64,000 nucleotides of DNA, from NCBI RefSeq assembly GCF_019396385.1, contig NZ_JAHKRN010000002.1, positions 186,001 through 250,000 on the forward strand, in the 5' to 3' direction. A model generated the notes under the pieces. It did no database searches. It was not told the DNA's origin and saw only the letters and a program-made list of their open reading frames with translations. The translations under genes and the position numbers were made by a program. The DNA is from Nonomuraea harbinensis (GTDB lineage Bacteria; Actinomycetota; Actinomycetes; Streptosporangiales; Streptosporangiaceae). Position 1 is the stretch's first letter, and each line of letters opens with the position of its first letter. Positions 15,001 to 33,632 of this stretch are shown here, piece by piece.

Positions 15001-15959
15001 CGGAACCACCGCGCACCGGGCACCGGCCGCCGCGCACCCCGCGCGAGCACACCCTGCTCGGCCTGTTCACCGAGGTCCTGGAGCGGCCGGAGCTCGGGGT
15101 CGACGACAACTTCTTCGCCGCCGGCGGCCACTCCATCCTGGCCGCCCGGCTGATCAGCAGGGCGCGTTCGACGCTCGGCGCCTCGCTGAGCATCCGCGAC
15201 CTGTTCGCCGCGCCCACGGTGGCCGAACTGACCGAGCGCCTGTCCGGCGGCGGCGCCGGCGACGACCCGTTCGACGTGCTCCTGCCGCTGCGGCCCTCGG
15301 GCACGCTGCCGCCGCTGTTCTGCGTGCATCCCGTCGGCGGCGTCAGCTGGTGCTACAGCAGCCTGCTGCCGCACATCGAACCGGACCGGCCGGTCTACGG
15401 CCTGCAGGCCACCGGACCCGACCAGCCCGGCTCGGTGGCCGAGATGGCCGAGCGCTACCTGGAGGTCATCCGCCGCGTGCGGCCGGAAGGGCCCTACCAC
15501 CTGCTCGGCTGGTCGTTCGGCGGCCTGGTGGCGCACGCCATGGCCGAGCGGCTGCCGGGTGAGGTCGGGCTGCTGGCCCTGCTCGACGGCTATCCCGCCT
15601 TCTCGGGCGCGGAGCGGCCGGGCATCGAGGACGCCGCCGAGGCCCGCGCCCTGCTCATGGACTCCGTCGGCTACGCGGCCGACCTCGACGAGGAGCTCGT
15701 CGCGTCGATGACGGAGACCGTGCTGCGCAACTCCAAGCTGCTCGACACCCACCGGCCCGGCCGCTACGACGGCGACGCTCACCTGTTCGTCGCCACCCGG
15801 ACCTGGCCGGCCGGGCTGTCGGCGGCCGGGATCTGGGCGCCGCACGTGGCGGGACGGCTGGCCGTACACGAGATCGACTGCGACCACGACGCCATGGCCA
15901 GGGCCGAGGCGATGGCCCTGATCGGGCCGATCGTGGCCGGACACTGCCGGGAGGCATGA
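6021..15959 (+). CDS. Non-ribosomal peptide synthetase, (C-A-T)x3-TE, terminal subunit
   Basis: This 3312-residue subunit adds three residues and releases the product. ATG 6021 is chosen because GAGAGG lies 10 nt upstream; an in-frame ATG at 6003 overlaps the previous stop. Domains: C (HHIAADG at 164), A (TSGSTG 623), T (GGHS, Ser 1023), C (HHIACDG 1193), A (1644), T (Ser 2010), C (HHIACDG 2189), A (2662), T (Ser 3038), type I thioesterase with GWSFGG (nucleophile Ser 3165). Codes read by eye: A3 DVGDVGAIDK, close to Arg/Orn codes; A4 DVSHVGAVDK, resembling the Trp-type code I recall from acidic lipopeptides; A5 DTDDMGYNDK, unassigned. All three end in Asp331, which is common in pockets for basic side chains. 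No epimerase or N-methylase domain is visible. Substrate calls are inference; domain calls are firm. Confidence 0.97.
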
Positions 15960-15963
15960 AGCG

Positions 15964-18167
<2,204 letters not shown>

Positions 18168-18175
<8 letters not shown>

Positions 18176-20057: not shown

Positions 20058-20083
20058 ACGGCATCTTTGTGCCAGTCACGCGG

Positions 20084-20110
20084 CCGGGCCCGCCGGGCCG
20101 GCGGGCCCGG
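20084..20110. promoter_or_regulatory. Strong GC hairpin between radical SAM and methyltransferase genes
   Basis: Perfect 11-bp inverted repeat: arms 20084-20094 (CCGGGCCCGCC) and 20100-20110 (GGCGGGCCCGG) with a 5-nt loop. No T-run follows. It sits 26 nt after the radical SAM stop in an otherwise overlapping operon. It could lower downstream expression, protect the upstream mRNA or act as an intrinsic terminator of the actinomycete type. Confidence 0.6.
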
Positions 20111-20144
20111 TGATGTGATCGAAGTCCCGACACCGGAGAGCGTG

Positions 20145-20876
20145 ATGCACGACTTCGACCACTGGGCGGAGCTCTACCTCGCCTGGACCGCGATGGGCGG
20201 CGCCGATCCACGGGAGATCGCCTACTACCAGCGGCTGACCGGCAGTGCGGACGGGTCCGTCGCCGATCTCGGCATCGGCGCGGGCCGGTTGGCCGCCGAG
20301 CTCAAACCCCGGGTCGGGGTGGACGTCTCGGCGGCGATGCTGCGCGCGGCCCGCGAGCGGCTGGGCGACGGCGTCCGGCTGATCCAGGCCGACCTGGCGG
20401 CCTGCGAGCTGCCCGAGCCGGTGGCGCTGCAGTACTGCGGCCAGAACACCCTCAACCATCTGCCGCGCCGGGCCGTCCGCGACGCGCTGGCCTGCGCGTT
20501 CCGCAACGCCCTGCCGGGCGGGCGGCTCGCCTTCGAGGTCGTCCAGCCGCGCCCCGAGCGGCAGAAGGCCCGGGACGGCGTGCCCAGGCTGCGGGTCTGG
20601 GACGAGCGGCGGGCCGTGTGGGAGGTCACCCGCATGCTGGACAAGCAGGGGCTGGAGGTGGAGATGATCGGGCTGCTCGAAGCGCTCGACGAGCGCCGGG
20701 TGGTGGACCGGCGCTACTTCCCGCCGATCCGGATGTGCTTCCTGACCATGGCCGAGATCGAGCGGTGGGCGGGCGAGACGGGCTGGGAGGTGGAGAGCGC
20801 GCACGCCGGGTTCACCGGCGAGCCGCTCGCGCCCGGTTCCTCGACGGCCGTGTGGTGCCTGCGCAGGCCGGCATGA
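20145..20876 (+). CDS. Class I SAM-dependent methyltransferase
   Basis: The 243-residue product has the Rossmann SAM-binding motif VADLGIGAGRLAAEL, followed by the acidic strand VGVDVSAAML, then LIQADLAAC and YCGQNTLNHLP as motifs II/III. It would methylate an O, N or C acceptor that I cannot identify. ATG 20145 is preferred: GGAGAG lies 4 nt upstream, while GTG 20115 just after the hairpin lacks a ribosome binding site. The stop overlaps the next ATG (ATGA). It lies between the radical SAM gene and the nucleotidyltransferase, so a role in modifying the same peptide or a precursor is likely but inferred. Confidence 0.85.
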   Translation: MHDFDHWAELYLAWTAMGGADPREIAYYQRLTGSADGSVADLGIGAGRLAAELKPRVGVDVSAAMLRAARERLGDGVRLIQADLAACELPEPVALQYCGQNTLNHLPRRAVRDALACAFRNALPGGRLAFEVVQPRPERQKARDGVPRLRVWDERRAVWEVTRMLDKQGLEVEMIGLLEALDERRVVDRRYFPPIRMCFLTMAEIERWAGETGWEVESAHAGFTGEPLAPGSSTAVWCLRRPA

Positions 20877-21985
20877 ACGCGCCCGTCGTCAGCGCGGAGC
20901 AGGTGGTCGCGACCCTTGAGCTGATCACCGGCCAGGAGCTGGAGACGCCCGGCGAGGTGCTCTACGCCGCCAGGCGCGAGCAGCCCTCTCTGGTGGCGAC
21001 GCTGCTCAGCGCCTGGGAGAGCGAGGGGCGGCGGCTCAGCCCCGCCCTGGCGCACGAGCTGGAGCAGCAGCGCGGCCGGATGGCCTTCTACCGCGACCAG
21101 TGGGCGCGCCTGCCCGACCGGCCCGTCTCGCTCAAGGGGCTGGAGTTCGCCGACCGCTATCCGGGCGGCCTGCTCAGGTACATGAACGACCTCGACCTCT
21201 GGATACCCGACCGCGACCGGCTGTGGGCGCTGACCGGGTGGCTGCTCGCCGAGGGCTGGTCGATGCACACCGCCTCGTTCGTCAGGCTCGGCGGCGCGAC
21301 CCAGGTGATCGTCAGCCTGCGACGCCTGCCGGATGATCCGTACGCCCTGCCGTACGGGATCGAGCTGAGCACGCTCGCCTACATCGGCGACGGGATCGCG
21401 GCGCCGCACCGCACGGAGGCGCCGGCGGACCCGGTGGTCAAGAACCTCCTGGCGCTGCTGTACGAGCGGTTCGAGCAGCCGTACCGGGTCAGGGACCTGA
21501 TCGACGCCGCGCTGCTGCTCGGCGGCGCGGACGAGGCCACGCTCGCCCGGTGCGCGCCGGCGGTCGGCGCGGCGGAGCTCTGGCCCGAGTACGCCGAGCT
21601 GGCGCGGCTGCTGCGGCAGAGCCCTTTCGACGTGCCGGACCTGCCGGGCGAGCGCCGGGCACAGGTCAGGCAGAGCCGGTCGCGGCGGCGCGCCAGGGTG
21701 CTGAGGGCGCTGCGCCGGCCGCTCCGCCTGGCGGCCACGACGCTGCAGCTGCGCAGGCCGGGAACGGCGATCCTGGAACGGCTGAGCCCGCGGGCCGCGC
21801 TGGAGGCGGGGCTGATCCTCTTCGCGCTGCCGGTCGAGGGCGGCGAGCGTGCGGACGAGCTGACGCTGCGGGAGTACGGCGGCGCGATGTGGGCGCACAC
21901 GCCGGTGGGACGGTTCATCCTGGTCCACGGGACTGAGGTGGACGAGGACCTGCTGGCCGGGGCAGAGCCGGTGGGCGCGCTGTGA
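20873..21985 (+). CDS. PF14907-type nucleotidyltransferase-fold protein
   Basis: The 370-residue product matches the layout of the uncharacterised nucleotidyltransferase family seen in many RiPP clusters: VSLKGLEF (Lys88) followed by an arginine-tyrosine segment and the metal-binding pair NDLDLW (Asp106, Asp108), then a helical domain with LYERFEQPYRVRDLIDAALLL. In lasso peptide clusters, related proteins act with a kinase on phosphorylated peptide termini (established knowledge for that family). Here an NDK-like phosphotransferase lies three genes downstream, which may be the functional partner. The C-terminal third (about 265-370) is rich in arginine then hydrophobic. Starts and stops overlap both neighbours (ATGA, GTGA). 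Confidence 0.78.
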   Translation: MNAPVVSAEQVVATLELITGQELETPGEVLYAARREQPSLVATLLSAWESEGRRLSPALAHELEQQRGRMAFYRDQWARLPDRPVSLKGLEFADRYPGGLLRYMNDLDLWIPDRDRLWALTGWLLAEGWSMHTASFVRLGGATQVIVSLRRLPDDPYALPYGIELSTLAYIGDGIAAPHRTEAPADPVVKNLLALLYERFEQPYRVRDLIDAALLLGGADEATLARCAPAVGAAELWPEYAELARLLRQSPFDVPDLPGERRAQVRQSRSRRRARVLRALRRPLRLAATTLQLRRPGTAILERLSPRAALEAGLILFALPVEGGERADELTLREYGGAMWAHTPVGRFILVHGTEVDEDLLAGAEPVGAL

Positions 21986-23184
21986 GCCGCCCGGTCCACG
22001 TCGCCGAGCGCGGCGCGGCGCCCGCCTGGCTGGCGCATCGGCCCGGCGCCGCGGTGACCACGGTCAGCGTGTGGCTGCGCGCCGGTTCCCGGCACGAGCG
22101 GCCCGGCGTCGAGGGCGGCACCCACCTGCTTGAGCACATCCTGATGCAGGTCCCGTCGGCCGGCGGGGAGCGGGTGATCGACCTGCTGGAGGATCTCGGC
22201 GGCGAGGCGAACGCGATCACCAGCCGTGAGCATCTGGTCCTGTACGCGCGGGTGCCGAGCGAGGAGGCGGCCGCGGCGCTGGACATCCTGGCCCGCGCCC
22301 TGGCCGAGCCCGAGCTGAGCGCGCCGGTGCTGGAGGCCGAGCGCAAGGTCGTCCAGGAGGAGCTGCGGCTGGCCGCGGCGGACCCCCTGGACGTGGTCCA
22401 CGACATCTTCTTCGGGCTGGCCTATCCGGGCCACCCGCTGGGCAGGCCGGTCGGCGGGACGATCGAGGAGGTCGACCGGCTGGAGCTGGACGCGCTGCGC
22501 GACCATCACCGGCGCTTCCTCGGCTCGGCCGGCGTGGTGGTGTGCGGCGGCGCCGACCCCGACGACCTGCTGCGCGTCCTGGACAAGGGACCGCTGGCCG
22601 CGCTGCCGCCGTGGCAGGAGAGCGATCCCGGCGAGCCGCCCGCCTGGGGCGGCGGACGCGAAGCGCTGCGGCTGAACGCCGACACCACCGGGGTGGTGCT
22701 GGGCGGCCCGGCGGCCGCGTACCGGGATCCGCTGCGCCACCGCTGGCCCGTGCTGATGGAGCTGCTGGCCGGGGCCAGCTCGGCGCTGCTCACCGAGGAG
22801 CTGCGCAACCGGCGGGGGCTCTGCTACGAACTGTGGCCGATGGTGGCCCCCTACCGCGACGCGGGGACCTGGCGGGTCTTCCTCGCCACCGCGCCCGAAC
22901 ATCTGGACGAGGTCGTCGACCGCGCGACGGAACTGCTCGCCGAGCCGCGGTGGACGGAGGCGGAGGCGGAGGTGACGCGGGCCGCCAGGCGCGCGGCCGG
23001 GCTGCTGCGGCTGGAAGCGGAGCAGTCGCTGGAAGAGGTCCTGCTGTACGGCAAGCACGCCCTGGTGGCGGGCACCCCCCACTGGACCCTCGCCGACGAG
23101 CTCGCGGCGATCGAGGCGGTGCGCGGGCCCGGCCTGGCCGAGATCCCTGGCCCGCTCGCCGTGGCGACCGCGGGCGGCGCGTGA
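21982..23184 (+). CDS. M16-family zinc peptidase (single-chain, about 400 residues)
   Basis: The inverted zinc motif HLLEH is at residues 48-52 in EGGTHLLEHILM, and the third ligand region EAERKVVQEELRL follows about 75 residues later, as in pitrilysin-type M16 peptidases. The protein contains one catalytic half followed by a second, inactive-looking half ending near residue 400. M16 proteins in RiPP clusters remove leader peptides or trim peptides (PqqF-like). GTG 21982 overlaps the nucleotidyltransferase stop. Its own TGA overlaps an ATG at 23184, which would open a 69-residue frame running through micro-ORF 2; I regard that frame as less likely than the micro-ORFs (see findings). It immediately precedes the micro-ORF array, its most likely substrate source. 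Confidence 0.9.
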   Translation: MSRPVHVAERGAAPAWLAHRPGAAVTTVSVWLRAGSRHERPGVEGGTHLLEHILMQVPSAGGERVIDLLEDLGGEANAITSREHLVLYARVPSEEAAAALDILARALAEPELSAPVLEAERKVVQEELRLAAADPLDVVHDIFFGLAYPGHPLGRPVGGTIEEVDRLELDALRDHHRRFLGSAGVVVCGGADPDDLLRVLDKGPLAALPPWQESDPGEPPAWGGGREALRLNADTTGVVLGGPAAAYRDPLRHRWPVLMELLAGASSALLTEELRNRRGLCYELWPMVAPYRDAGTWRVFLATAPEHLDEVVDRATELLAEPRWTEAEAEVTRAARRAAGLLRLEAEQSLEEVLLYGKHALVAGTPHWTLADELAAIEAVRGPGLAEIPGPLAVATAGGA

Positions 23185-23280: not shown

Positions 23281-23331
23281 ATGGACCGGCAGCGTCGAGT
23301 CAGTCTTCGCCCCAAGCTGACCAGGAAATGA
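23281..23331 (+). CDS. Micro-ORF 1, 16-residue basic peptide of a tandem set
   Basis: The encoded peptide is MDRQRRVSLRPKLTRK. GGAGAG/AAAGGAG lies 5-7 nt before the ATG, a better ribosome binding site than most genes here have. It shares MDR at the start and RPKLxRK at the end with micro-ORF 2, with a variable middle (QRRVSL). It is one of three such ORFs spaced about 60 nt apart between the M16 peptidase and the NDK-like gene. The 96 nt before it hold no other supported gene. Function unknown; candidates are a precursor peptide with no separate leader, or a regulatory leader peptide. Confidence 0.62.
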   Translation: MDRQRRVSLRPKLTRK

Positions 23332-23342
23332 GGCAGGAAAAC

Positions 23343-23393
23343 ATGGACCGGCGCCATTTCGTCGTCCGTCGTCCCAAGCTCCGGAGAAAGTGA
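23343..23393 (+). CDS. Micro-ORF 2, 16-residue basic peptide of a tandem set
   Basis: The encoded peptide is MDRRHFVVRRPKLRRK. It starts 11 nt after the stop of micro-ORF 1, with GAGGCAGGAAAAC as its upstream site. The intergenic sequence and the first nine coding bases resemble those of micro-ORF 1, which indicates tandem duplication. The variable middle is RHFVVR. The same frame stays open back to ATG 23184, so a 69-residue product ending in this peptide is a formal alternative. Confidence 0.62.
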   Translation: MDRRHFVVRRPKLRRK

Positions 23394-23402
23394 GACGATC
23401 CC

Positions 23403-23465
23403 GTGGATCGGCACATCTACATTGTCATCAAACGCCCCCGCGTCCGGAAATCCCGTAAGGGCTAG
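23403..23465 (+). CDS. Micro-ORF 3, 20-residue basic peptide of a tandem set
   Basis: GTG start 9 nt after the stop of micro-ORF 2. The peptide is MDRHIYIVIKRPRVRKSRKG: same MDR start, a hydrophobic middle (HIYIVI), and a KRPRVRK segment equivalent to the RPKLxRK end of the other two. It is the most diverged copy, with a four-residue extension. The NDK-like gene follows after 18 nt with GAGGAAG as its site, so all three micro-ORFs lie in the operon. Confidence 0.58.
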   Translation: MDRHIYIVIKRPRVRKSRKG

Positions 23466-23483: not shown

Positions 23484-24335
23484 ATGGCCGAGATCGTGTG
23501 GGACAGGACGATCCTGTTCCTGTTTCCGCCCGACGCGTTGATGCGGCATCTCGTCACTCCGGTCCTGGAACGGCTGGAGGAGCACGGGTTCGAGCCGACT
23601 CGCTACGAGGTGCTGTGGCACCGGCCGCCCGGGCAGGACGCCTTCCAGGAAACCAAGATCACTTCCGTCTGGAAGGCCTACTTCTACCGGCAGGTCGACG
23701 TGGTGTTCGATCTCGGGCCGAGCCTCGCCCTGCTGGTAGAGGACAGGTCGTCCGCGCCGGAGCCGCACCGGCGGCTGCGTGCCCTGAAGGGCGCCAGCGA
23801 CCCGGCGGCGGCCGAGCCCGGCACGATCAGGCGTGACCTGCGCGGCGTCAACGTGCTGCTGGACCTGGTGCACAGCTCCGACAGCCCGGAGGATTCCCGG
23901 CACGAGGCCGGGATCTTCATGGGCGAGGGCCACGGCACGGCGCTCCACGGCGACCAGGGGCCGCTCCGCGACCTGGTGGCGCTCCTGGAGGCCGGTGTGC
24001 CGCGCGAGAGCAGGGAGTTCGACGACGTGCGCGCCGGGTTGCGCTCGCGGGTCGTGGCCGCGCTCTGGCACGAGCTCGACGACGGGGCGCGCAAGCTGGC
24101 CCCCGAGCTGGCCGTGTCGGCCAGGGACGGCGCGGGCGCCGAGCTCGCCGCGCTGCTCCCCGCCGGCCATCCGCTGGCCGAGCTCCTGGCCTGCGAGTTC
24201 CTGCCGGAAGGCGAGCGTCTCGACCTGCGGCGGGCGGCGGCCAAGCTGGCGGTCCACGGGGTGTCGATGGACCGATGGGAGCACGCGGTGCTGCAGACGT
24301 CGATGCTGTTCCCGCCGCTGCGCCGCTGGCAGTGA
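23484..24335 (+). CDS. Nucleoside-diphosphate-kinase-like protein with C-terminal extension
   Basis: Residues 5-147 follow the NDK fold: DRTILFLFPPDAL matches the usual ERTLxxxKPDAV strand, ASDPAAAEPGTIRRDL matches the NPxxxxPGTIRGDF loop, and LVHSSDSPEDSRHEAGIF matches NxxHGSDSxESAxxEIxxFF, so the phospho-accepting histidine (His130) is kept. The phosphate-contacting Lys of the first motif is replaced by Phe, which suggests changed chemistry. Residues 148-283 are an extension of unknown fold. Ordinary NDKs are 135-150 residues. Its place right after the micro-ORFs suggests phosphoryl or nucleotidyl transfer to a peptide rather than nucleotide housekeeping; that is inference. Confidence 0.75.
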   Translation: MAEIVWDRTILFLFPPDALMRHLVTPVLERLEEHGFEPTRYEVLWHRPPGQDAFQETKITSVWKAYFYRQVDVVFDLGPSLALLVEDRSSAPEPHRRLRALKGASDPAAAEPGTIRRDLRGVNVLLDLVHSSDSPEDSRHEAGIFMGEGHGTALHGDQGPLRDLVALLEAGVPRESREFDDVRAGLRSRVVAALWHELDDGARKLAPELAVSARDGAGAELAALLPAGHPLAELLACEFLPEGERLDLRRAAAKLAVHGVSMDRWEHAVLQTSMLFPPLRRWQ

Positions 24336-24340
24336 GCCCG

Positions 24341-25372
24341 TCACGGCGACAGCGTGGTCGTCCTGGCGCTCCACTCGATCAGCGGCTTGAGCTCCGGGTC
24401 CAGCGCCAGCACCCAGATCGGCAGCTCGACGGCCCGGCATCCCCGTGACAGCTTCGCCCGCCAGGCACCGTGCCCGTAGTGCAGGCGGCTGACCCCGGCC
24501 TCGGCGGCGTGGCGGGCCGGCTCGTAGAAGGCGGTCGCGAAGTACGTGTGCCGCGCCTCGTGGAGGTCGTACGCCATGGCCGTGCTCACGCAGTACCAGG
24601 TGCCCCTGTGGGGGACGAAGAGCCCGTATCCCACGAGCCGCTCGCCGAGCTCCGCGCCGAACAGCAGCGCGCCGCCCGAGCAGAGCGCCCGCAGACGGCG
24701 GGCCACGGCCGCCGGATCGGGGCTGCCGCCATATTTCCGGGAATGTCCGCACTTCAGTTCGACCATCCCCGGCACAGGCCGTCCGATCTCGGTCATACGG
24801 AGCCGCACCCCCGCCTCCGCCAGCCGCCGCGTCTCCCGCCGCGCCTCCTTCGCCCGGCGCGCCGGCAAGGGCGTGCCCGGGGTGAGTTCGCACGAGTACG
24901 ACATCGGCATCCCGGTGAAGCCCTGCCCGCCGAGCGCCCGCTCCAGCGCCGGCCCCCGCGTGTACAGGAACGCCACCGCCCGCAGCCCGCGTGCCCGCGC
25001 CCAGACGACGATCTCGGACACCAGGGTCTCCACCGCCGCGGCGTCGTCCCCGGCCGGGCCGAGCGCGTGACACTCGTACCCGGGCAGCATGACCACCAGG
25101 TGCGGCGTGCATCCGGGCCAGGCCGCCCGCCGGGCCCGCGCCGCCCTGGTGGCCGCGCTCAGCGGCAGCTTCGGGGTGTCCGCCGTCAGCAGGTGCCCGA
25201 GGTCGAACACCTCGCCCGGACACGGCCGCTCAGCGACGGTCCCGTGCAGGATCGCCCCGCCCAGCTCGAAGGTGTACGGCGAGCCGGGCACCCGCCCGCC
25301 CATGGCGGCCAGCCAGCGGCCGGCGCTGAACAGCGGTCCCTCGGCCGGGAGCAGCCCGGCGGTCACCCGCAT
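24341..25372 (-). CDS. FemAB/GNAT-like acyltransferase, copy 1
   Basis: The 343-residue product has two halves. The C-terminal part (about 200-330) looks like a GNAT fold: GALLFGAELGERLVGYGLFVP followed by TWYCVSTAMAYDLHEARHTYF and a terminal LHYGHGAWRAKLSRGC. The N-terminal half is a second, more diverged copy of the fold with few recognisable motifs. FemAB-like proteins move aminoacyl groups from tRNA, and other members use acyl-CoA. It is read opposite to the surrounding operons, in one unit with copy 2 (stop of copy 2 and start of this gene share a base, TGATG). Only 5 nt separate its stop from the stop of the NDK-like gene. Confidence 0.7.
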   Translation of the reverse strand: MRVTAGLLPAEGPLFSAGRWLAAMGGRVPGSPYTFELGGAILHGTVAERPCPGEVFDLGHLLTADTPKLPLSAATRAARARRAAWPGCTPHLVVMLPGYECHALGPAGDDAAAVETLVSEIVVWARARGLRAVAFLYTRGPALERALGGQGFTGMPMSYSCELTPGTPLPARRAKEARRETRRLAEAGVRLRMTEIGRPVPGMVELKCGHSRKYGGSPDPAAVARRLRALCSGGALLFGAELGERLVGYGLFVPHRGTWYCVSTAMAYDLHEARHTYFATAFYEPARHAAEAGVSRLHYGHGAWRAKLSRGCRAVELPIWVLALDPELKPLIEWSARTTTLSP

Positions 25373-26367
25373 CAGACCTTCACCAGGCACGCGTCGAGCC
25401 CGAGCCGGCTCAGCCCGTGCCTGAGCTTGAACCGCGGGTTGCCCCGCCCGCCCTCCAGGACCTCGCATCCCTCGCGCACGGCCTGCTCGGCGGTCGCGGC
25501 GTGCAGGAGCGCATACGGGCTGAACCCGCCCGTCACGTCGTAGTCCACCCCGCACGCCCAGGCGTGGAAGCGGCGGCCGTCGCGCAGCGCGATCCCGGCG
25601 GCGACGAGCCGCTCCTCCTGGCGGATCTCGATGGCGAGCGCCAGGTCGCCCAGCCCGGTGACGAAGCCGGCGAACAGCTCGGGCGGGTAGAAGCCGCCGG
25701 TGCCGTGCCTGGCCGCGGTCCTGGCGCACAGCCGCCCGATCTCCATGAGGTCCGCCTCGCCCGCGATCCCGACCCGCTGCCACACGCCGGACTCCTCCGC
25801 TCTGCGCCGGCCCCGGCGCAGGTTGGCGCGCGCCTTCCGGGTGGCGTGGACGAAGGGGTGCGGCAGTCCGCGCAGGTCGAGACGGAAACGGTCCTCGATG
25901 TGCTCGGCGGAAAAGCCCAGCTCCACGAGACCGGCGCGGAGCGGCGAGTCGTGCGCGACGTTGACGAAGCCGTACCAGTCGGCCTCCAGCTCCAGGGCCA
26001 GGCCGCGCATCGCGTCGGCCACGGCCTCCAGCGCCGGCGCGCCGGGCAGCCAGGCGTCGTAACAGTGCCAGACGTGGCTCAGCAGCCCGCGCTCCGCGCC
26101 GGTCACCGGGTAGCGGGCACGCAGCTGGCCCAGGGGGTCCAGCCCGTCCATCAGCGAGACGGGAAGCACCGCGACCGGACGCCCGCCCTCGCGCACCACC
26201 AAATAGCGGAATGACTGCACGGCCGCCAGCGGATGACGGGCGTAGGACCGCAAATAGCGATGCCGATAGAAAACCGGCGCCCCGCAGGACGAGACAATCG
26301 CATCCCATTCCGCGCCGTCAAGGGCGTCGATTGACGTGAAGATGCCAATTTCCAGGCTGTCGCTCAT
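25372..26367 (-). CDS. FemAB/GNAT-like acyltransferase, copy 2
   Basis: The 331-residue product begins with a typical GNAT_6/FemAB opening (SIDALDGAEWDAIV, FYRHRYLRSYARHPLA, FRYLVVREGGRPVAVLPV). The C-terminal half has EIRQEERLVAAGIALRDGRRFHAW, then YALLHAATAEQAVREGCEVLEGGRGNPRFK, the tail that closes the acyl-binding cleft in this family. It is the first gene of a two-gene minus-strand unit and diverges from the ThiS/PP-loop gene across about 60 nt. The two copies differ strongly, so they probably act on different substrates. Acceptor and donor are unknown. Confidence 0.75.
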   Translation of the reverse strand: MSDSLEIGIFTSIDALDGAEWDAIVSSCGAPVFYRHRYLRSYARHPLAAVQSFRYLVVREGGRPVAVLPVSLMDGLDPLGQLRARYPVTGAERGLLSHVWHCYDAWLPGAPALEAVADAMRGLALELEADWYGFVNVAHDSPLRAGLVELGFSAEHIEDRFRLDLRGLPHPFVHATRKARANLRRGRRRAEESGVWQRVGIAGEADLMEIGRLCARTAARHGTGGFYPPELFAGFVTGLGDLALAIEIRQEERLVAAGIALRDGRRFHAWACGVDYDVTGGFSPYALLHAATAEQAVREGCEVLEGGRGNPRFKLRHGLSRLGLDACLVKV

Positions 26368-26427
26368 GTCGCCCTTTCGCCGACTGTAGAAACGATATTA
26401 AGCACAATGAACAGCGAGGAGAAAGCC

Positions 26428-27633
26428 GTGGCCCAAGTCGTCTTCCATAACAAGGTGGGCGGTTCCGAAACTCTGGAGGCCGCCGCCGGCCGGCCGCTCA
26501 CGGAGGTCCTGACCGCCCACGGCATCCCCGTCAACGCGGTCATCACCACCCGCAACGGGAAGATCGTCCCCGAGGAGACGACGATCGTCGGCGAGCACGA
26601 CGTCATCGAACTGCGCCAGGTGCGCCACTACGACCTCGACGTCACCCGCCGGCCCGCGACCACGGTGTACGGCACGCCCGACCCGATCTACACCAAGTCC
26701 ATCCTGTTCGACACCATGGGCCGCCTGGAGCGGCGCGTGGAGCAGTTCGACGAGGAGAGCTTCGTCCGCTACGTCGAGGAGACCTTCGTCCAGAGCGTGC
26801 TCGGCCACGGCGTGCTCCAGGCGGACGACAACGTGGTCATCGGCCTGTCGGGCGGCCGCGACAGCGTCGCCTTCCTGAAGCTGCTCGAACGCACCAGGCA
26901 CCGGCTGCCCGCCTTCACGATGACCTCGGTGACGATCACCGGCCTGCCCGACTGGGAGGAGCCGGCCACCTTCGCCGCCGCCCGCGCCTCGGCCGAAGGG
27001 CTCGGCATCGACCAGGTCATCGTCGACGCCTCCGACATCGAGCGGGTCTTCAAGCTCCGCCGCCCCTTCGTGGAGGCGATGAACGAGGTGGTCGGCGGCG
27101 ACCGGAGCCACCTGAACATGGTCGTGGGCCACCAGGTGCTGCGGCGCATGCTGGAGGACCACGCCCAGCGGATCGGCGCCGGGACGGTCGCGTTCGGGTT
27201 CAACGGCGACGACCTGGTGGCCAGCATGGTCACGTGGCTCACCAGCGGCTTCCGGATGGGCGGCATCCCGGTCAGGCAGATCGGCGGGATGCGCTACGTC
27301 TTCCCGCTCTACCGCATCCCGAAGAAGGAGCTGACGATCTACCTGGAACTGGTGGCTCCCGAGCTGAACCGCCAGGGCACCCCGGGCCGCTTCACCACCG
27401 GCCCGCAGGAGCGCTCGATGGCCTACGCCATGGCCGACCACCTGTACGGCCTGTGGCCCGGCATCGACTACTACCTGTTCGAGTCGTTCTCCACCATGCA
27501 GCGCTACATGTTCCCGCTGGTCGAAGAGAAGTGCCGGGTCTGCGAAGGCGTCTACGTGGCTCAGGAGGGCGTGCGCAATCCCGTCGACATCTGCGACGTG
27601 TGCGACTTCTTCGCGCGCCAGGAGTACGCGTGA
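26428..27633 (+). CDS. ThiS/MoaD-like domain fused to a PP-loop ATPase with C-terminal zinc motifs
   Basis: Residues 1-75 look like a ubiquitin-fold sulfur carrier (LEAAAGRPLTEVLTAHG, GKIVPEETTIVGEHDVIELRQV) but lack the terminal Gly-Gly needed for a thiocarboxylate. The rest is a TtuA/TilS-like adenylating enzyme: PP-loop SGGRDS at 141-146, then CRVC and CDVC near the end as a zinc-binding pair. TtuA/NcsA enzymes thiolate tRNA; cluster-borne relatives insert sulfur into small molecules or peptides. A length of 401 residues is one TtuA plus one carrier domain. GTG 26428 is chosen because GAGGAG lies 6 nt upstream; ATG 26407 has no site. It could activate a carboxyl or amide group as an AMP ester and transfer S or N. 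That activity is inference. Confidence 0.8.
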   Translation: MAQVVFHNKVGGSETLEAAAGRPLTEVLTAHGIPVNAVITTRNGKIVPEETTIVGEHDVIELRQVRHYDLDVTRRPATTVYGTPDPIYTKSILFDTMGRLERRVEQFDEESFVRYVEETFVQSVLGHGVLQADDNVVIGLSGGRDSVAFLKLLERTRHRLPAFTMTSVTITGLPDWEEPATFAAARASAEGLGIDQVIVDASDIERVFKLRRPFVEAMNEVVGGDRSHLNMVVGHQVLRRMLEDHAQRIGAGTVAFGFNGDDLVASMVTWLTSGFRMGGIPVRQIGGMRYVFPLYRIPKKELTIYLELVAPELNRQGTPGRFTTGPQERSMAYAMADHLYGLWPGIDYYLFESFSTMQRYMFPLVEEKCRVCEGVYVAQEGVRNPVDICDVCDFFARQEYA

Positions 27634-29339
27634 CCCGTTGGTACGCCGAGTACTTCACCGCCGACTACTGGAGCTTCGCCCGGCACGAGTACACCAGGGA
27701 GCGCACCGCCGCGGAGACCGCCTACCTGCTGCAGGTCCTGGGCGAGCACGCGCCGGGACGGCGGCTGCTCGACCTCGGGTGCGGCACCGGCCGGCACGCC
27801 GTCGAGCTGGCCCGCCACGGCTACCGGGTGACCGGGGTCGACGTGTGCGCGTGGGCTCTGGAGCAGGCCAGGTCGGCGGCCGCCCGGGAGGGCGTGCGGG
27901 TCGGCCTGATCGAGGGCGACCTGCTGGAGCGGGTCGAGCTGCCGGAGGCCGACGCGGCGATCTGCGTGCAGGCCTTCGGCTGGGGACGGGACGACGAGCA
28001 GCTCGCCCTGCTGCGGCGGGTGCGTGAGCGCCTGGTGCCGAGCGGGCTGCTGGTTCTCGACCACTCGAACGTCGCGGCCATCCTGAGCCGGTACCGGGCC
28101 CGCGACCGCTTCGAAGCGGCCGGCGACACCTTCGACTTCCTGCGTTCCTACGACCCGCTGGACGGCCGGAGCCGCGGCGAGCTGCGCGTGGCGCACGCCG
28201 ACGGCCGCGTCGCCGTGCTCCGCGACGACGTCAGGCTCTACCTGCCGAGCGAGGTCGTGTCGCTGGTGCGGGCGGCGGGCTTCGAGCTGGTACGGGCCGA
28301 CGCCGGCTTCACCGCCGGCGCCGCCGTCCAGCCGGAGACCCGCTACGTCCAGATCCTCGCCGTCGCGGCGCCGCGCCCCCGTCCCGCCGTGCTCGGTCAC
28401 CGGGGCCGCGGCGCCGAGGTGGACCTGCGATGGGCGCCCGACGAGATCGACTTCGTACGGGACGCGATCGACGACGCCTGGGCCGCCGTCGGCGATCCCC
28501 GGGAACCCGCCCGCGCCTACTCCCTGGACGACCCGTACGGCTCGGGGAGCGCCGCCCCGGTGCTCGCCCGCCACTTCGGCGTGCCGCTCGACCCCGGCCA
28601 GGTGGTGACGGGGGCGGGCACCACCGGGCTGCTCCACGCGCTGGCCGGGCCCGGCAGGCTGCTGCACACCGCGTACGCCCACCCCGACCTGCCCGCCTGG
28701 TCCGCGCAGCGCGGCGCGGAGCTGCGCGTGTACACGCCCGGACAGGACGTGGCGGGCGAACGGCCGACGACCGTCCTGCTGGAACGGCCCGGCGTGCGCG
28801 GCGACGTGCTGCCGCTGGAGCAGGTGGCGGAGCTGGCCGAGGCCGCCGCCGCCGCGGGCGGGGTGCTCGTCGTCGACGAGGCCTGCGCCAACTACCTCGG
28901 CCCCCGGGCCAGCGCGGTGCCGCTGACCACCCGGGTGCCCGGCCTGGTCGTGCTGCGCAGCCTGTCGAAGGGCTACTGCTGCGGCGGGCTGCGCGCGGGC
29001 TTCGCGATGTGCTCCCCTGACGTGGCGCGCGCGGTCCGCCAGGCGGTGCCGCCTCTGGGGATGTCGGCGTTGTCGCTGGAGGTGGCGCTGCGGCTGCTCG
29101 ACCAGGGCGACGTGCTGGCCCCGCTGCGGCAGGCCGTCGCGGCGGCCAAGCCGGAGCTGGTGGAGATGTTGAGCGGGCTCGGCTGCCGGGTGGAACCAGG
29201 GCATCCCGCGCTGCCCTGGGTGGTGACCGAGGACGAGCTGCCGCCGTGGCTGGCCGGGCGGCGGTTGCCGGGCCTGACCCGGGTCAGCGTGCCGCTCTCG
29301 GCCGTCCGCCGCGCCGCGCTCCGCCGGGCCGCGGCATGA
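27630..29339 (+). CDS. Methyltransferase-PLP aminotransferase fusion protein
   Basis: The 569-residue product joins two enzymes. Residues 1-245 are a class I methyltransferase (RLLDLGCGTGRHAVELA, TGVDVCAWAL, DAAICVQAFGWG). Residues 265-569 resemble fold-type I aminotransferases of the HisC/CobD kind: VVTGAGTTGLLHALAG, VLLERPGVRGDVLP, GVLVVDEACANYLG, and the PLP-lysine region LRSLSKGYCCGGLRAGFA. It would methylate a keto acid or amino acid and (de)aminate it, or act at two steps of one pathway. GTG 27630 overlaps the previous stop (GTGA) and its own stop overlaps the next ATG (ATGA), so it is tightly coupled to the PP-loop and M28 genes. Which amino acid it makes is unknown. Confidence 0.83.
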   Translation: MTRWYAEYFTADYWSFARHEYTRERTAAETAYLLQVLGEHAPGRRLLDLGCGTGRHAVELARHGYRVTGVDVCAWALEQARSAAAREGVRVGLIEGDLLERVELPEADAAICVQAFGWGRDDEQLALLRRVRERLVPSGLLVLDHSNVAAILSRYRARDRFEAAGDTFDFLRSYDPLDGRSRGELRVAHADGRVAVLRDDVRLYLPSEVVSLVRAAGFELVRADAGFTAGAAVQPETRYVQILAVAAPRPRPAVLGHRGRGAEVDLRWAPDEIDFVRDAIDDAWAAVGDPREPARAYSLDDPYGSGSAAPVLARHFGVPLDPGQVVTGAGTTGLLHALAGPGRLLHTAYAHPDLPAWSAQRGAELRVYTPGQDVAGERPTTVLLERPGVRGDVLPLEQVAELAEAAAAAGGVLVVDEACANYLGPRASAVPLTTRVPGLVVLRSLSKGYCCGGLRAGFAMCSPDVARAVRQAVPPLGMSALSLEVALRLLDQGDVLAPLRQAVAAAKPELVEMLSGLGCRVEPGHPALPWVVTEDELPPWLAGRRLPGLTRVSVPLSAVRRAALRRAAA

Positions 29340-31108
29340 GGACCGTGGGCGACGCCGTACAGGATGCGTTCGACCGTTGCGACGTGCGGCGGGCGGTCGA
29401 GGACGTCGCGGAGCTGGCCGCGTTCGACCGATACCAGGCGTCCGACGGGATCCGCGCGGCCGCCGAGTACGTCGCCGGCCGGGCGGAGCGGGCGGGCCTG
29501 AGCGACGTGCGGCTCCTGGAGTTCCCCGCCGACGGCGCCAGGCGCTGGTGGAGCTTCCGCGCCCCGCTCTCCTGGACCCCGGTGCGGGCCGCGATCGACG
29601 ACGTCGTGCGCTACCCGGAGCAGCCGTTCGCGCTGGCGGCGGGTTCGGCGGCGACCCCGCCCGGCGGCGTCACCGTCACCGTGGCGCCTCTGGCGGACGC
29701 CGGTGAGGGCGCGCTGGCCGTACACGACGACGACCCCGGCACGCCGGTGCCCGTCGCGATCGCGCGGGCCGCGAGCGCCGGGGCGTTCGGCCTGGTCACC
29801 GACCGCCTGCCCGGCCCCGGCAGGGTCGAGCTGCCGGCCGGGAGCGGCCTGGCCGCCTTCAGCGTCACCCCTGAGCAGGCGGCCGAGCTGCTGCGGCGGG
29901 GCCGGGTCCGGGTCGAGGTCGAGACGCACCGGCGGGCGGCCATGCCCGTCGTCACCGGGCTGCTGCCCGGGACGGGGCCGGAGGAGGTGCTGCTCTCGGC
30001 GCACCTGTGCCATCCGCGCCCGAGCGTCAACGACAACGCCTCGGGGGCCGCCGCGCTGCTGAGCGTGGCCAGGATGCTCGCGGGGCGGCGGGGGAGGCGC
30101 GGCATCAGGTTCGTCTGGGGTCCCGAGTTCACCGGGATGGCCGCCTACCTGCACGACGTCGCCGCCCGCCCGCCGGTGGCCGCCGTGAACGTGGACATGG
30201 CGGGGCAGGACCAGCGCCGGTGCGGCGGGCCGCTCATCGTCGAGCGCAGCCCCGACCACCTGCCCGGCTTCGTCAACGCGCTCACCGAGCACGTCGTGGC
30301 GGCGCTGCCGCAGGCCGCGCGCTCCTACTCGGGTGCGGTGGCCTGCGACACCTGGGCCTGGCGTGCCACGCCGTTCGTCGGGGCCTCCGACCACAGCCTG
30401 CTCGTGGACGCCTCCATCGGCTGCCCGACGGTGTCGCTCGGGCACTGGCCCGACCGGTTCAACCACAGCGCCGCCGACACGCTCGACAAGCTCGACCCGG
30501 CGGAGCTGCGCCGTACGGCCACGGTCGCGGGCGCGGTCGCGGCGGTGCTGGCCGGGCTCGCGGGCGAGCGCGCCGAACTGGAGGACATCGCGGTGGGCTG
30601 GGGGGCGGCGCGGTTGCTCGGGTGCCGGCAGGGGTCACGGGCGCTGCTGCGGCACCGTACGGCCGTCGCCCTGGGCGCCCTGGACGGCGCGGAGGCGCTC
30701 CACGGCCGCGCGGGCGGCGGGGCACGCGCCTGGCTGACCGGCCTCGCAAATCACGTTGCCGCGCTCTCACCGGCCGGAGCGGGCGCCGCGCTGTCGCCGG
30801 CGGGTGAAAGCGGCGAGGTGTTCGCCGGGCCGGTGCTCAGTCGTGCCTGGGATGGGCCGTTCAACCTGCGCGGGCTGGCCGAGGCGGCGAGTCCCGCCGG
30901 GCGCGTGTGGCTGGATCGGCAGGCGGCGCGGGCCCGGGCCCGCTCCTACGCCCTCATGCTGGCCCTCGCCCACGGCATCGACGGCGCCAGAGACCGGGCG
31001 GCGCTCGCCGCCTACGCGGAGTGCGCGGCCGAGCTGCCGGTGCCGGAGGAGTTCGCGCACGAGTTCCTGGCCGTGCTCGTCGAGGCCGGCTGGGCGAAGG
31101 AGGGCTGA
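29336..31108 (+). CDS. M28/DUF4910-type aminopeptidase-like protein
   Basis: The 590-residue product carries a zinc aminopeptidase core: LSAHLCHPRPSVNDNASGAAALL (His223, His226, Asp233), FVWGPEFTGMAAYL with a catalytic-type glutamate, NVDMAGQ, and CPTVSLGHWPDRFNHSAADTLDKL with the last histidine ligand. The DUF4910 family shares this HxCHP...NDNASG layout. It has a short N-terminal helical part and a C-terminal helical tail (about 420-590) that the family often has. There is no signal peptide, so it acts in the cytoplasm, perhaps removing N-terminal residues from a ribosomal or NRPS peptide. Start and stop overlap both neighbours. Confidence 0.8.
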   Translation: MRTVGDAVQDAFDRCDVRRAVEDVAELAAFDRYQASDGIRAAAEYVAGRAERAGLSDVRLLEFPADGARRWWSFRAPLSWTPVRAAIDDVVRYPEQPFALAAGSAATPPGGVTVTVAPLADAGEGALAVHDDDPGTPVPVAIARAASAGAFGLVTDRLPGPGRVELPAGSGLAAFSVTPEQAAELLRRGRVRVEVETHRRAAMPVVTGLLPGTGPEEVLLSAHLCHPRPSVNDNASGAAALLSVARMLAGRRGRRGIRFVWGPEFTGMAAYLHDVAARPPVAAVNVDMAGQDQRRCGGPLIVERSPDHLPGFVNALTEHVVAALPQAARSYSGAVACDTWAWRATPFVGASDHSLLVDASIGCPTVSLGHWPDRFNHSAADTLDKLDPAELRRTATVAGAVAAVLAGLAGERAELEDIAVGWGAARLLGCRQGSRALLRHRTAVALGALDGAEALHGRAGGGARAWLTGLANHVAALSPAGAGAALSPAGESGEVFAGPVLSRAWDGPFNLRGLAEAASPAGRVWLDRQAARARARSYALMLALAHGIDGARDRAALAAYAECAAELPVPEEFAHEFLAVLVEAGWAKEG

Positions 31109-32319
31109 TGCGCGAGTTGCTGCGCGACCGCCGGTTCCTGCTGCTGTTCTTCGGTCAGACGGTGAACATGATCGGGGACCGGGCGCTCCTGGTGGTGCTG
31201 GGCATCTACGTCAAGGAGCTGACCGGCTCGGACACGATGGCCGGGGTGGTGTTCATCCTGCTGGCGGTGCCGTCGTTCTTCGCGCCGCTGACCGGGCTGC
31301 TCGTCGACAGGTTCCCGCGGCGCAAGGTCCTGATCGTCAACGACCTGCTGGCCGGGGCGCTGGTGCTCTGCCTGCTGCTCGTGCGGCATCCGGGCGATCT
31401 GTGGATCGTGTTCGCGGTCACGCTCGGCTACGGCTTCGCCAACCACGTCTTCAACGCGGCCAGGGGCGGACTGATCCACTCCATGGTCCCCGAGCGGCTG
31501 CTCGGCGACGCGAACGGGCTGCTCAGCTCACTCGGCCAGGGACTGCGGGTGCTCGGCCCGCTGATCGGCGCGGCGCTGTACGTGGCGCTGGGGCTGTCCG
31601 CGGTGGCGATCCTGGACACGGCGACGTTCCTGGTGTCGGTGCTGGTGCTGCTCATGCTCCGGCGGGCGCCCGACCTGGCCGCTCCGGCGCCGCGGGAGCC
31701 CGGCCGGTTCCGCGCCGATCTGCTGGCGGGGGTGCGCCACATCATGGGCGACCGGGAGCTGCGCGGCGGCGTGCTGGCGGTGGCCGCGGCGCTGTGCGCG
31801 GCGGGGCTGGTCAACCCGGCCATGTTCGCCGCCGTGGAGCAGGGGCTCGGCCGGCCGGCCGCGTTCGTCGGGGTCATCGCCGCTTTCCAGGGCGCGGGTT
31901 CGGTCGCCGGGGGCTTCGTCGTCGCCGTGCTCATCAGGCGGTACGGGGAGCATCGCGCGGCGGCTGTGGGCTTCGGGCTCAGCGCGGCGGGCCTGGCCCT
32001 GGTGATTCCCGCGACGGAGGTGACGATGTGCGCGAGCGGCGTTCTGGTGGGTCTTTCCATCCCGATTTTCATGGTGGCCACGACGACGCTCGTGCAGCGC
32101 CGTACCACGAGCGGTATGCAGGGCCGCGCGCTTACCGCAATGGACGCGATCATCGACCTGCCGTTCGTGTTGTCCATGGGGATCGGGGCGCTCGTCGTGG
32201 GGTTCCTCGATTTCCGGGTGATCTACGCGGCGGCGGCGGTGATTTTCGCCATGGTGACCGCGTCAGTGCTGGTGGGGCGAGGGTGGCGGATTGATGCCAA
32301 CCTGGCGAAAGTTGATTGA
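31108..32319 (+). CDS. MFS exporter
   Basis: The 403-residue membrane protein has about 12 hydrophobic segments and the MFS_3 (EntS/macrolide-efflux-like) features: FLLLFFGQTVNMIGDRALLV at the start and LVDRFPRRKVLIVNDLL as the loop 2-3 motif. It probably exports the product or protects the cell from it. Its ATG shares a base with the stop of the aminopeptidase gene (TGATG). It is the last gene of this operon: the stop codon lies in a small inverted repeat and a new promoter starts there. Confidence 0.88.
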   Translation: MRELLRDRRFLLLFFGQTVNMIGDRALLVVLGIYVKELTGSDTMAGVVFILLAVPSFFAPLTGLLVDRFPRRKVLIVNDLLAGALVLCLLLVRHPGDLWIVFAVTLGYGFANHVFNAARGGLIHSMVPERLLGDANGLLSSLGQGLRVLGPLIGAALYVALGLSAVAILDTATFLVSVLVLLMLRRAPDLAAPAPREPGRFRADLLAGVRHIMGDRELRGGVLAVAAALCAAGLVNPAMFAAVEQGLGRPAAFVGVIAAFQGAGSVAGGFVVAVLIRRYGEHRAAAVGFGLSAAGLALVIPATEVTMCASGVLVGLSIPIFMVATTTLVQRRTTSGMQGRALTAMDAIIDLPFVLSMGIGALVVGFLDFRVIYAAAAVIFAMVTASVLVGRGWRIDANLAKVD

Positions 32320-32395: not shown

Positions 32396-32539
32396 GTGTT
32401 GCATGAAAGCATCCAGACCAGTGTGAAAACCCCCATCATGACGACTCCGGAATTCGTCGAGAAAATGCTCGCCGCGCGCCAGGAAGTTCAGGTCGTGAAG
32501 TTCCGCACGACGTGCACCGACTGCGTGCCGAACTACTGA
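32396..32539 (+). CDS. 47-residue peptide with CxxC tail, candidate RiPP precursor
   Basis: GTG start with AGGAGG ending 5 nt before it, the strongest ribosome binding site in the biosynthetic region. The peptide begins LHESIQTSVKTP, continues as an amphipathic stretch TTPEFVEKMLAARQEVQVV and ends in RTTCTDCVPNY. A helical leader followed by a short Cys/Thr-rich tail is the usual shape of a ribosomal precursor peptide. It has its own promoter, and its stop is one nucleotide before the phosphodiesterase ATG, so the two are coupled. No known precursor family was recognised. It may be the substrate of the radical SAM protein, the PP-loop enzyme or the peptidases upstream; this is inference. Confidence 0.68.
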   Translation: MLHESIQTSVKTPIMTTPEFVEKMLAARQEVQVVKFRTTCTDCVPNY

Positions 32540-32540
32540 C

Positions 32541-33632
32541 ATGACCGAGGCCGGGACGTTCGCGCGCCCCGGGCTCGACCTGCGTGCCGTCCCCGGGCTG
32601 GTTCTGTCGGAACTGGACCGGGGCGGTCGCGGCGTGCTCGTCCTGGCCGTGGACGGGCTCTCCTGGCAGGTCGCCCGGCGGGTCTGGCGGTCCGCCGAGC
32701 TCTCCTGCCTGGCCTCCACCTTTCCCAGCACCTCGGCCACGGCGTGGCTCACCTCGGTCACCGGCGCGCCGGTGACCGGGCATCTGACGGTGGGCGCCGC
32801 CTATCGCGAGCGGGCCGGCGGTCCGCTCGTCAACGCGATCACGGGGGACGTCCTGGCGGGAGAGGCGGCGCCGCGCGAACCGGTCCGGCCGCTGCCCACG
32901 GTCTTCGAGCGGGCGGAGGGCGCCGAGGCGGTGGTGGTGGGCCGCGAGCTCGACCTGCTGTCCGGTCCCTGGGTGGACGCGCTCACCCGCGGCGCGGCGC
33001 GGCAGCCGGCGCGGGAGGCGCTGACCCGCGACCCGTACCGCCTGGTGGCGGGGGTGGCGGCGGACGTCGGAGCGGCGATCGGCGCGCGGCGGACCCGCCC
33101 GCTGCTGCTGTGGGTCTACGTCAACCTCGACGACCACCTGCACCGGCACGGCTACGACGAGCGGGCCGTAGGGGCGCTGGCCGAGCTGGAGCGGCACGCG
33201 GCCGCCTGGGCTCGCCGGGGGTGGCACGTGCTCGCCTACGCCGACCACGGCCTGGTTCCCGTCGCCTCCGACCCCGGCCTGGCGCGACGCTGGGCGGAGG
33301 TGGACACGCCCGAGCTGTGCGAGCTGCCGGGCGGCGGGGCCGGCCGGGTGCGCTGGCTCTACCCGCATCCGGGCAGGGAGCGGGAGGTGGCGGAACGTCT
33401 CGCCGAGGCCCTGGACGGCCATGCCATGGTGCTGCCCGCGACCGCGCTCGGCGAGCTGGGCCTGATGGAATCCGCCGGCCCGGTGCGGGAGCGGCTCGGC
33501 GCGGTGATGGCGATCGCCACCTCACCGCGCTTCCCGCTCCCCGATCCCGGACTGTCCTACGAGCACGGGGCGATCAGCGACGGGGAGACGCTGGTCCCGC
33601 TGGCGCGCTGGGTCAGATCCAGCCGCGCCTGA
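32541..33632 (+). CDS. Alkaline-phosphatase-superfamily phosphodiesterase/nucleotide pyrophosphatase-like protein
   Basis: The 363-residue product has the metal-binding layout of the superfamily: LVLAVDGLSWQ (first Asp), FPSTSATAWLTSVTGA with the Thr nucleophile, VNLDDHLHRHG (Asp/His), YADHGLVPV and YEHGAISDGE with the last His. Family members hydrolyse phosphodiesters, nucleotide pyrophosphates or phosphonates. It has no signal peptide. Its start is one nucleotide after the stop of the 47-residue peptide gene. With a nucleotidyltransferase-like and an NDK-like protein in the same region, it could remove a phosphoryl or nucleotidyl group from a peptide, or serve as immunity. Its 3' end overlaps the convergent regulator gene by 20 nt. 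Confidence 0.82.
   Translation: MTEAGTFARPGLDLRAVPGLVLSELDRGGRGVLVLAVDGLSWQVARRVWRSAELSCLASTFPSTSATAWLTSVTGAPVTGHLTVGAAYRERAGGPLVNAITGDVLAGEAAPREPVRPLPTVFERAEGAEAVVVGRELDLLSGPWVDALTRGAARQPAREALTRDPYRLVAGVAADVGAAIGARRTRPLLLWVYVNLDDHLHRHGYDERAVGALAELERHAAAWARRGWHVLAYADHGLVPVASDPGLARRWAEVDTPELCELPGGGAGRVRWLYPHPGREREVAERLAEALDGHAMVLPATALGELGLMESAGPVRERLGAVMAIATSPRFPLPDPGLSYEHGAISDGETLVPLARWVRSSRA

Follow-up and report, generated by a model that had tools for sequence, protein, structure and literature searches.

Tandem micro-ORFs for cationic peptides beside an M16 peptidase gene in a putative RiPP-type cluster of Nonomuraea harbinensis and its relatives

What purpose might be served by three reading frames of 16 to 20 codons, crowded into the gap between the gene of an M16 peptidase and that of an NDK-like enzyme? 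The question is raised by a stretch of 64,000 nucleotides from the soil actinomycete Nonomuraea harbinensis, called here the window. An earlier note on this DNA had described the three as a tandem set whose starts lie 60–62 nt apart, each behind a purine-rich site, and had suggested that they might be a set of RiPP precursors. The three micro-ORFs read as described (Table 1), and their starts are spaced 62 and 60 nt. The purine-rich site is present before the first two copies; before the third, a scan upstream of the start detected no ribosome-binding core. The start codon of the third copy is GTG, which corrects an earlier reading.

Table 1. Features of the window that bear on the micro-ORF array and its surroundings
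Feature	Position	Strand	Remarks
Tryptophan-halogenase-type gene	16071-17672		found in 3 of 10 array clusters
Flavin reductase	17690-18175		found in 3 of 10 array clusters
B12-type radical SAM enzyme, RiPP C-methyltransferase family TIGR03975	18168..20057	+	514 bits; accessory
Class I methyltransferase	20067..20876	+	found in 3 of 10 array clusters
Nucleotidyltransferase-like protein	20873..21985	+	weak NTP_transf_5 match, below gathering score; start inferred
M16 peptidase, MPP-beta / bacterial processing-protease type	21982..23184	+	present with the array in 10 of 10
Micro-ORF 1	23281..23331	+	MDRQRRVSLRPKLTRK; ATG; AGGAG 4 nt upstream
Micro-ORF 2	23343..23393	+	MDRRHFVVRRPKLRRK; ATG; AGGA 4 nt upstream
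Micro-ORF 3	23403..23465	+	MDRHIYIVIKRPRVRKSRKG; GTG start; one additional residue in centre
NDK-like protein	23484..24335	+	N-terminal NDK domain and extra C-terminal part; His130 invariant
GNAT-fold protein a	24344..25351	-	aligned extent; FemAB-like match of the Streptosporangium homologue falls slightly short of gathering score
GNAT / FemAB-like protein b	25375..26367	-	aligned extent
TtuA/NcsA-like PP-loop enzyme	26407..27633	+	N-terminal stretch matches PDB 1ryj; most conserved gene of the cluster
Methyltransferase - PLP aminotransferase fusion	27630..29339	+	start inferred
M28-type peptidase-like protein	29336..31108	+	approximate start
MFS transporter	31105..32319	+	approximate start
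47-aa peptide ending VVKFRTTCTDCVPNY	32396..32539	+	downstream of MFS gene; likely main RiPP precursor
Type I phosphodiesterase / nucleotide pyrophosphatase-like protein	32541..33632	+	match just under gathering score

Are the micro-ORFs genes at all? Two ATG-initiated micro-ORFs of the pattern M[DEN]R-x6/7-RP occur on the two strands of the window, where 200 sequences simulated from a first-order Markov model contained on average 0.04 and never more than 1 (GTG starts were excluded, and hence the third micro-ORF is uncounted). What decides the matter is that homologous arrays occupy the same interval in relatives, which were sought with the NDK-like and M16 proteins as queries. A scan of contigs led to four named relatives (Nonomuraea soli, Acrocarpospora catenulata, Streptosporangium sandarakinum and S. 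pseudovulgare), which recur in the order-level set and are each counted once. At the level of the order, the NDK-like gene was found in 15 of 345 genomes, and in ten of these (the window's included) an array of 2–10 copies lies between it and the M16 gene. The copy number is three in the window, two each in N. soli and Acrocarpospora, six in each Streptosporangium species, and eight, ten, four, four and three in the genomes G083, G280, G287, G283 and G175, respectively. The sum is 48 micro-ORFs, comprising 47 distinct DNAs and 41 distinct peptides. The placement between the two genes, noted earlier for the window, thus recurs in all ten array genomes, and no genome with both M16 and NDK-like genes was found to have the neighbors without the micro-ORFs. 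In the other five genomes (G072, G258, G260, G060 and G329), the NDK-like genes are more distant, and neither a regular expression nor a profile found an array.

The way the copies were collected limits what may be read from some of their residues. They were selected by the pattern M[DEN]R...RP, and the invariance of Met1, Arg3 and RP is therefore due in part to that choice. A motif-free listing of basic ORFs of 10–30 residues in the ten intervals added just five, indicating that the motif-based selection omitted little. G287 and G283 each contribute a degenerate copy, G083 two dissimilar ORFs and G175 one such ORF; all five are left out of the 48. The degenerate copies (MALQARRPKITKPKKR, in loci L047 and L048) lie between the second and third full copies of their arrays and keep the RRP part, having lost the MDR start; they are a sign of turnover inside the arrays. 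When a profile of the peptides was run against 17 whole genomes, all 47 matches at E<0.01 fell inside arrays. The 14 weaker matches were the two degenerate copies and 12 elsewhere, the latter at E of 0.0198 or more. The search scored at most 150 candidates per genome and missed one known copy in G280. With a profile of 19 positions, single E-values are weak; it is position, codon pattern and repetition that carry the case for genes.

The codon pattern is of the coding type. The peptides follow the consensus MDR-x5-RRP-[KR]-tail, are 16–20 residues long and carry a net charge of +5 to +8. Although 4 to 8 residues were allowed between MDR and RP, six are found in 45 of the 47 distinct DNAs and seven in two. 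Asp2 and the Arg preceding RP are each present in 39 of the 41 distinct peptides. These residues are conserved by way of synonymous codons: over the 48 micro-ORFs of the ten genomes, Arg3 is written with five codons, Pro with four and Asp2 with two. Between G287 and G283 the conserved codons show three changes and between the two Streptosporangium species five, all synonymous; among 12 conserved codons, the window differs from N. soli by two non-synonymous changes, and the tally against Acrocarpospora is the same. When copies of an array are compared with one another, synonymous differences outnumber non-synonymous ones at the conserved codons (301 to 77), and the reverse is true of the centre (83 to 457). 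The earlier description of constant ends around a varying middle holds; the middle, however, is not free. Of its 207 residues, 72 are basic, two are Asp or Glu and none is Pro, and small hydrophobics are frequent just ahead of RRP. Given this narrow composition, the centre may serve for recognition instead of being a series of cores. In view of all this, the three micro-ORFs of the window are almost certainly real genes, and the case for their coding is as strong as sequence by itself can make it.

The arrays are compact. Of the 38 stop-to-start gaps, 30 are 0–10 nt; one is a 4-nt overlap and the remaining seven are 11, 11, 35, 37, 41, 119 and 120 nt. Copies in long arrays are mostly 2–3 nt apart. 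A 60-nt ORF and a 2-nt gap together are not divisible by three, and most successive copies accordingly lie in different frames (copies 2 and 3 of the window share one). As every copy also has its own stop, the arrays do not encode one polyprotein. A scan for ribosome-binding cores of at least four bases found one before the first copy in nine of the ten arrays, G083 being the exception; over all copies it found one in 25 of 48 and none in 23. In the larger arrays, purine-rich tail codons (often Lys-Lys-Gly-stop) lie 2–3 nt ahead of the next start. It is probable from this arrangement that the micro-ORFs are translated through coupling, the purine-rich tail of the preceding copy serving the next start. 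The tail sits where the next site belongs, which may account for part of its conservation; in G175 it is still basic though the gaps are 35 and 41 nt.

The gene order around the arrays is conserved: a nucleotidyltransferase-like gene, M16, the array, the NDK-like gene, one or two GNAT/FemAB-like genes on the opposite strand and the PP-loop enzyme, followed by the methyltransferase-aminotransferase fusion, the M28-like peptidase and the MFS transporter. In G175, only protein b of the GNAT pair was found, and it is farther away. We take the invariant His130 of the NDK-like protein to be the equivalent of the catalytic histidine of NDK. In the six further array clusters that were aligned, the PP-loop enzyme shares 71–95% identity with the window's, and its nearest solved relatives are a U34-tRNA thiolase and TtuA. 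The structure matched by its N-terminus, 1ryj, is listed as 'unknown' and is presumably of a ThiS-like fold. An AlphaFold2 model of the enzyme had a mean pLDDT of 41.8 and was set aside as too poor. The B12 radical SAM gene, which the earlier note had placed upstream of the array as a maturase, is indeed there in the window and belongs to TIGR03975, but it was found in only three of the ten array clusters within the stretches fetched. It was therefore rejected as the defining maturase and is considered accessory, together with the halogenase and flavin reductase of the same three-in-ten occurrence. In the window, positions 1-20057 hold NRPS genes with at least five modules (the first gene is cut by the window start) and a thioesterase, then the halogenase, the reductase and the radical SAM gene. 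The last three genes also occur alongside the array clusters of N. soli, in the same order, and of Acrocarpospora, on the other side, which suggests a hybrid pathway in these three genomes.

The cluster probably makes a modified peptide, and it has a precursor candidate of its own. A 47-aa peptide is encoded in all ten array clusters, with a near-invariant C-terminus (FRT-TCTDCVPNY; KFRTTCTDCVPNY in the window): FRTTCTDCVPN is followed by Tyr in nine and by Met in one. Relatives were read in 19 other PP-loop clusters, with endings that include FRTTCTDCVPNF, FRTNCSDCVPNL and FRTCCADPRAS[RK], and the family reaches another actinobacterial family (G439, G1236 and G1158). It also occurs on the conjugative Geobacillus plasmid pGS18 (L068, NC_010420.1), where, within positions 13763-15221, genes for a PP-loop relative (36% identity) and a methyltransferase accompany that of a 47-aa peptide with the ending FRTCATDPITSW; this locus is a minimal version of the cluster. 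The 47-aa peptide is likely to be the main RiPP precursor of the pathway. The micro-ORFs, then, need not be RiPP precursors. In the literature searched we found no description of a RiPP-type family that combines such a peptide with a TtuA-like enzyme having a ThiS-like N-terminus; nor did we find one of the micro-peptides or of this cluster, a weak negative as mainly open papers were searched.

The gene that goes with the array is that of the M16 peptidase. Comparison of 20 PP-loop clusters found ten with both and ten in which neither M16 nor array was found within the stretches read (G439, G1236, G1158, G270, G269, G072, G045, G358, the second cluster of G175 and the Geobacillus plasmid). G175 serves as an internal control: of its two clusters, L059 and L094, one has M16 and array, and in the other neither was found. 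By regular expression and profile, no micro-ORFs were found in the M16-less clusters or in those of the more distant NDK-like genes, the best profile scores there being 10.0 and 10.5 bits; array copies score 15.5–38 bits, except for one true copy in G280 at 7.8 bits, so that a single very diverged copy could escape detection. On the tree of the PP-loop enzyme, the M16-array label needs two changes, possibly one, and two pairs among the ten are near-identical. The association is thus statistically weak, reflecting one or two joint events and not ten. The micro-ORFs appear, from these comparisons, to be an add-on that accompanies the M16 gene. An orphan M16 gene of the same subfamily lies in G013 (L039, 10826-12010). 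Considered as a further array site, it was rejected, as neither an array nor a cluster was found around it in the 19 kb read. It is perhaps a remnant, and, by keeping M16 without an array, it weakens a strict link between the two. In an alignment of ten M16 sequences (nine from array clusters and the G013 orphan), HLLEH (H48, E51, H52), E126/E127 and R275/Y282 are invariant. Among solved structures, a bacterial processing protease and MPP-beta are closest to this enzyme. MPP cuts Arg-rich presequences, and, given the charge of the micro-peptides and an MPP-like partner, cleavage by M16 would be the simplest assumption.

Known systems offer partial parallels. The substrates of the mitochondrial processing peptidase are short and Arg-rich, as are the micro-peptides, but those substrates are N-terminal presequences of proteins, whereas the micro-peptides are free-standing gene products. 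In the PQQ pathway, a small ribosomal peptide, PqqA, is cut up by the M16 peptidase PqqF to yield a small molecule. The pairing of an M16 peptidase with a small ribosomal peptide is alike in the two cases. PqqA donates Glu and Tyr, which are conserved in that peptide; in the 41 micro-peptides they are not, Glu occurring once and Tyr five times, and among the genes scanned nothing matched PQQ biosynthesis beyond a weak similarity of the M16 gene to PqqF. M16 enzymes in RiPP processing have been reviewed, and in class III lanthipeptides the M16 peptidases PttP1 and PttP2 process the precursor as a heteromer (PMC10885120). Here a single M16 gene carries the HxxEH motif as well as the R/Y one, and the genes scanned included no lanthipeptide synthetase. 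Another parallel is offered by the biarylitides and RufO, which have very small and almost leaderless ribosomal precursors and use a cytochrome P450 on aromatic residues; the RufO pentapeptide is made ribosomally, nitrated and used as a building block of rufomycin (PMC12951456). RufO is a precedent for a micro-peptide donating just a building block (PMC12951456). The micro-peptides differ from these aromatic-rich pentapeptides in being 16–20 residues long, basic, mostly without aromatics and encoded in arrays of up to ten, and a Pfam scan of the cluster genes gave no cytochrome P450 match.

Several other readings of the locus need to be weighed. The earlier note had taken a 69-residue frame from ATG 23184, which is open, overlaps the M16 stop and ends in the second micro-ORF, as the main competitor. 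Nothing corresponding to its upstream part was seen in the relatives read, and the copies of the arrays mostly differ in frame. That this frame is a real gene was rejected as scarcely credible; it appears to be a by-product. Ribosome stalling, also raised there, has in its favor that the ORFs are short and directly upstream of a gene, the NDK-like one, which they would control. A stalling leader is a single upstream ORF with a conserved C-terminal sequence that controls the next gene. The arrays have 2–10 copies, both motifs are conserved at the protein level with the strongest conservation at the N-terminus and in the internal RRP, and in both Streptosporangium genomes the NDK-like gene lies 159 nt beyond the last copy, all of which make control by stalling highly improbable. 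A role as cationic antimicrobials or signals, exported as such or trimmed first, would suit the charge, the richness in Arg, Lys and Pro and the several diversified copies. But 16–20 basic residues leave no room for a leader or signal sequence, and the MDR start and the RRP motif are kept; we regard such a role as quite unlikely.

The reading as RiPP precursors, each copy yielding a different small product from its variable centre, deserves more weight, yet we consider it on balance unlikely. The micro-ORFs are, as precursors would be, conserved small peptides encoded in a RiPP-type cluster, which in the window includes the TIGR03975 enzyme; the peptidase has its motifs intact, the ends are constant and the centre changes fast. 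On the other side stand the narrow composition of the centre, the near absence of Cys, Trp and Phe (once each in the 41 peptides, albeit with Ser and Thr common), the low occurrence of the radical SAM gene and the separate precursor with its near-invariant C-terminus in the same clusters. It is M16 that tracks the array, and constant ends do not by themselves tell a leader from a core. Alternatively, the peptides could be helpers that bind and regulate a maturation enzyme or M16 in trans and contribute nothing to the product. A pair of motifs whose spacing hardly varies does resemble a binding epitope, and many near-equivalent copies would suit dosage. Against this, the conserved enzymes other than M16 have relatives in array-less clusters, so that the peptides are no general cofactor for them, and we rate a purely helping role as rather improbable.

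The explanation to which we give even chances is that the micro-genes encode cationic peptides that are cut by the MPP-like M16 peptidase and feed a RiPP-type pathway as donors or helpers. The pathway itself would be built on the 47-aa FRT-Cys precursor and the TtuA-like sulfurtransferase. The adjacent peptidase would recognize and cut the Arg-rich micro-peptides, and the conserved part (MDR and/or RRP) would be donated to the final product, the peptide being a sacrificial carrier, or, alternatively, would act on the maturation enzymes. Two motifs flanking a changing but compositionally narrow stretch fit a carrier and a binding peptide alike. What the sequences show is the conservation, the coding-type codon pattern, the structure of the arrays and their association with M16; that the peptides are translated, cut by M16 and used in the pathway, and which piece of them matters, are deductions. 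A bolder form of the donor idea, which we find possible but doubtful, is that the arrays are banks of coupled micro-genes whose peptides are made just to be cut by M16, supplying the MDR/RRP piece to a thiolated-RiPP pathway that has a separate precursor.

The usual gene finders have length limits above 16–20 codons. A conserved family of peptide genes of that size can hide between two annotated genes, and here it marks a RiPP-type cluster with a TtuA-like sulfurtransferase and an FRT-TCTDCVPNY precursor. The family poses the question of why up to ten micro-peptides and a dedicated M16 peptidase are kept where the pathway has its own precursor. If the bank-like supply is true, the arrays would be a new kind of biosynthetic part, one that supplies the same short piece many times over.
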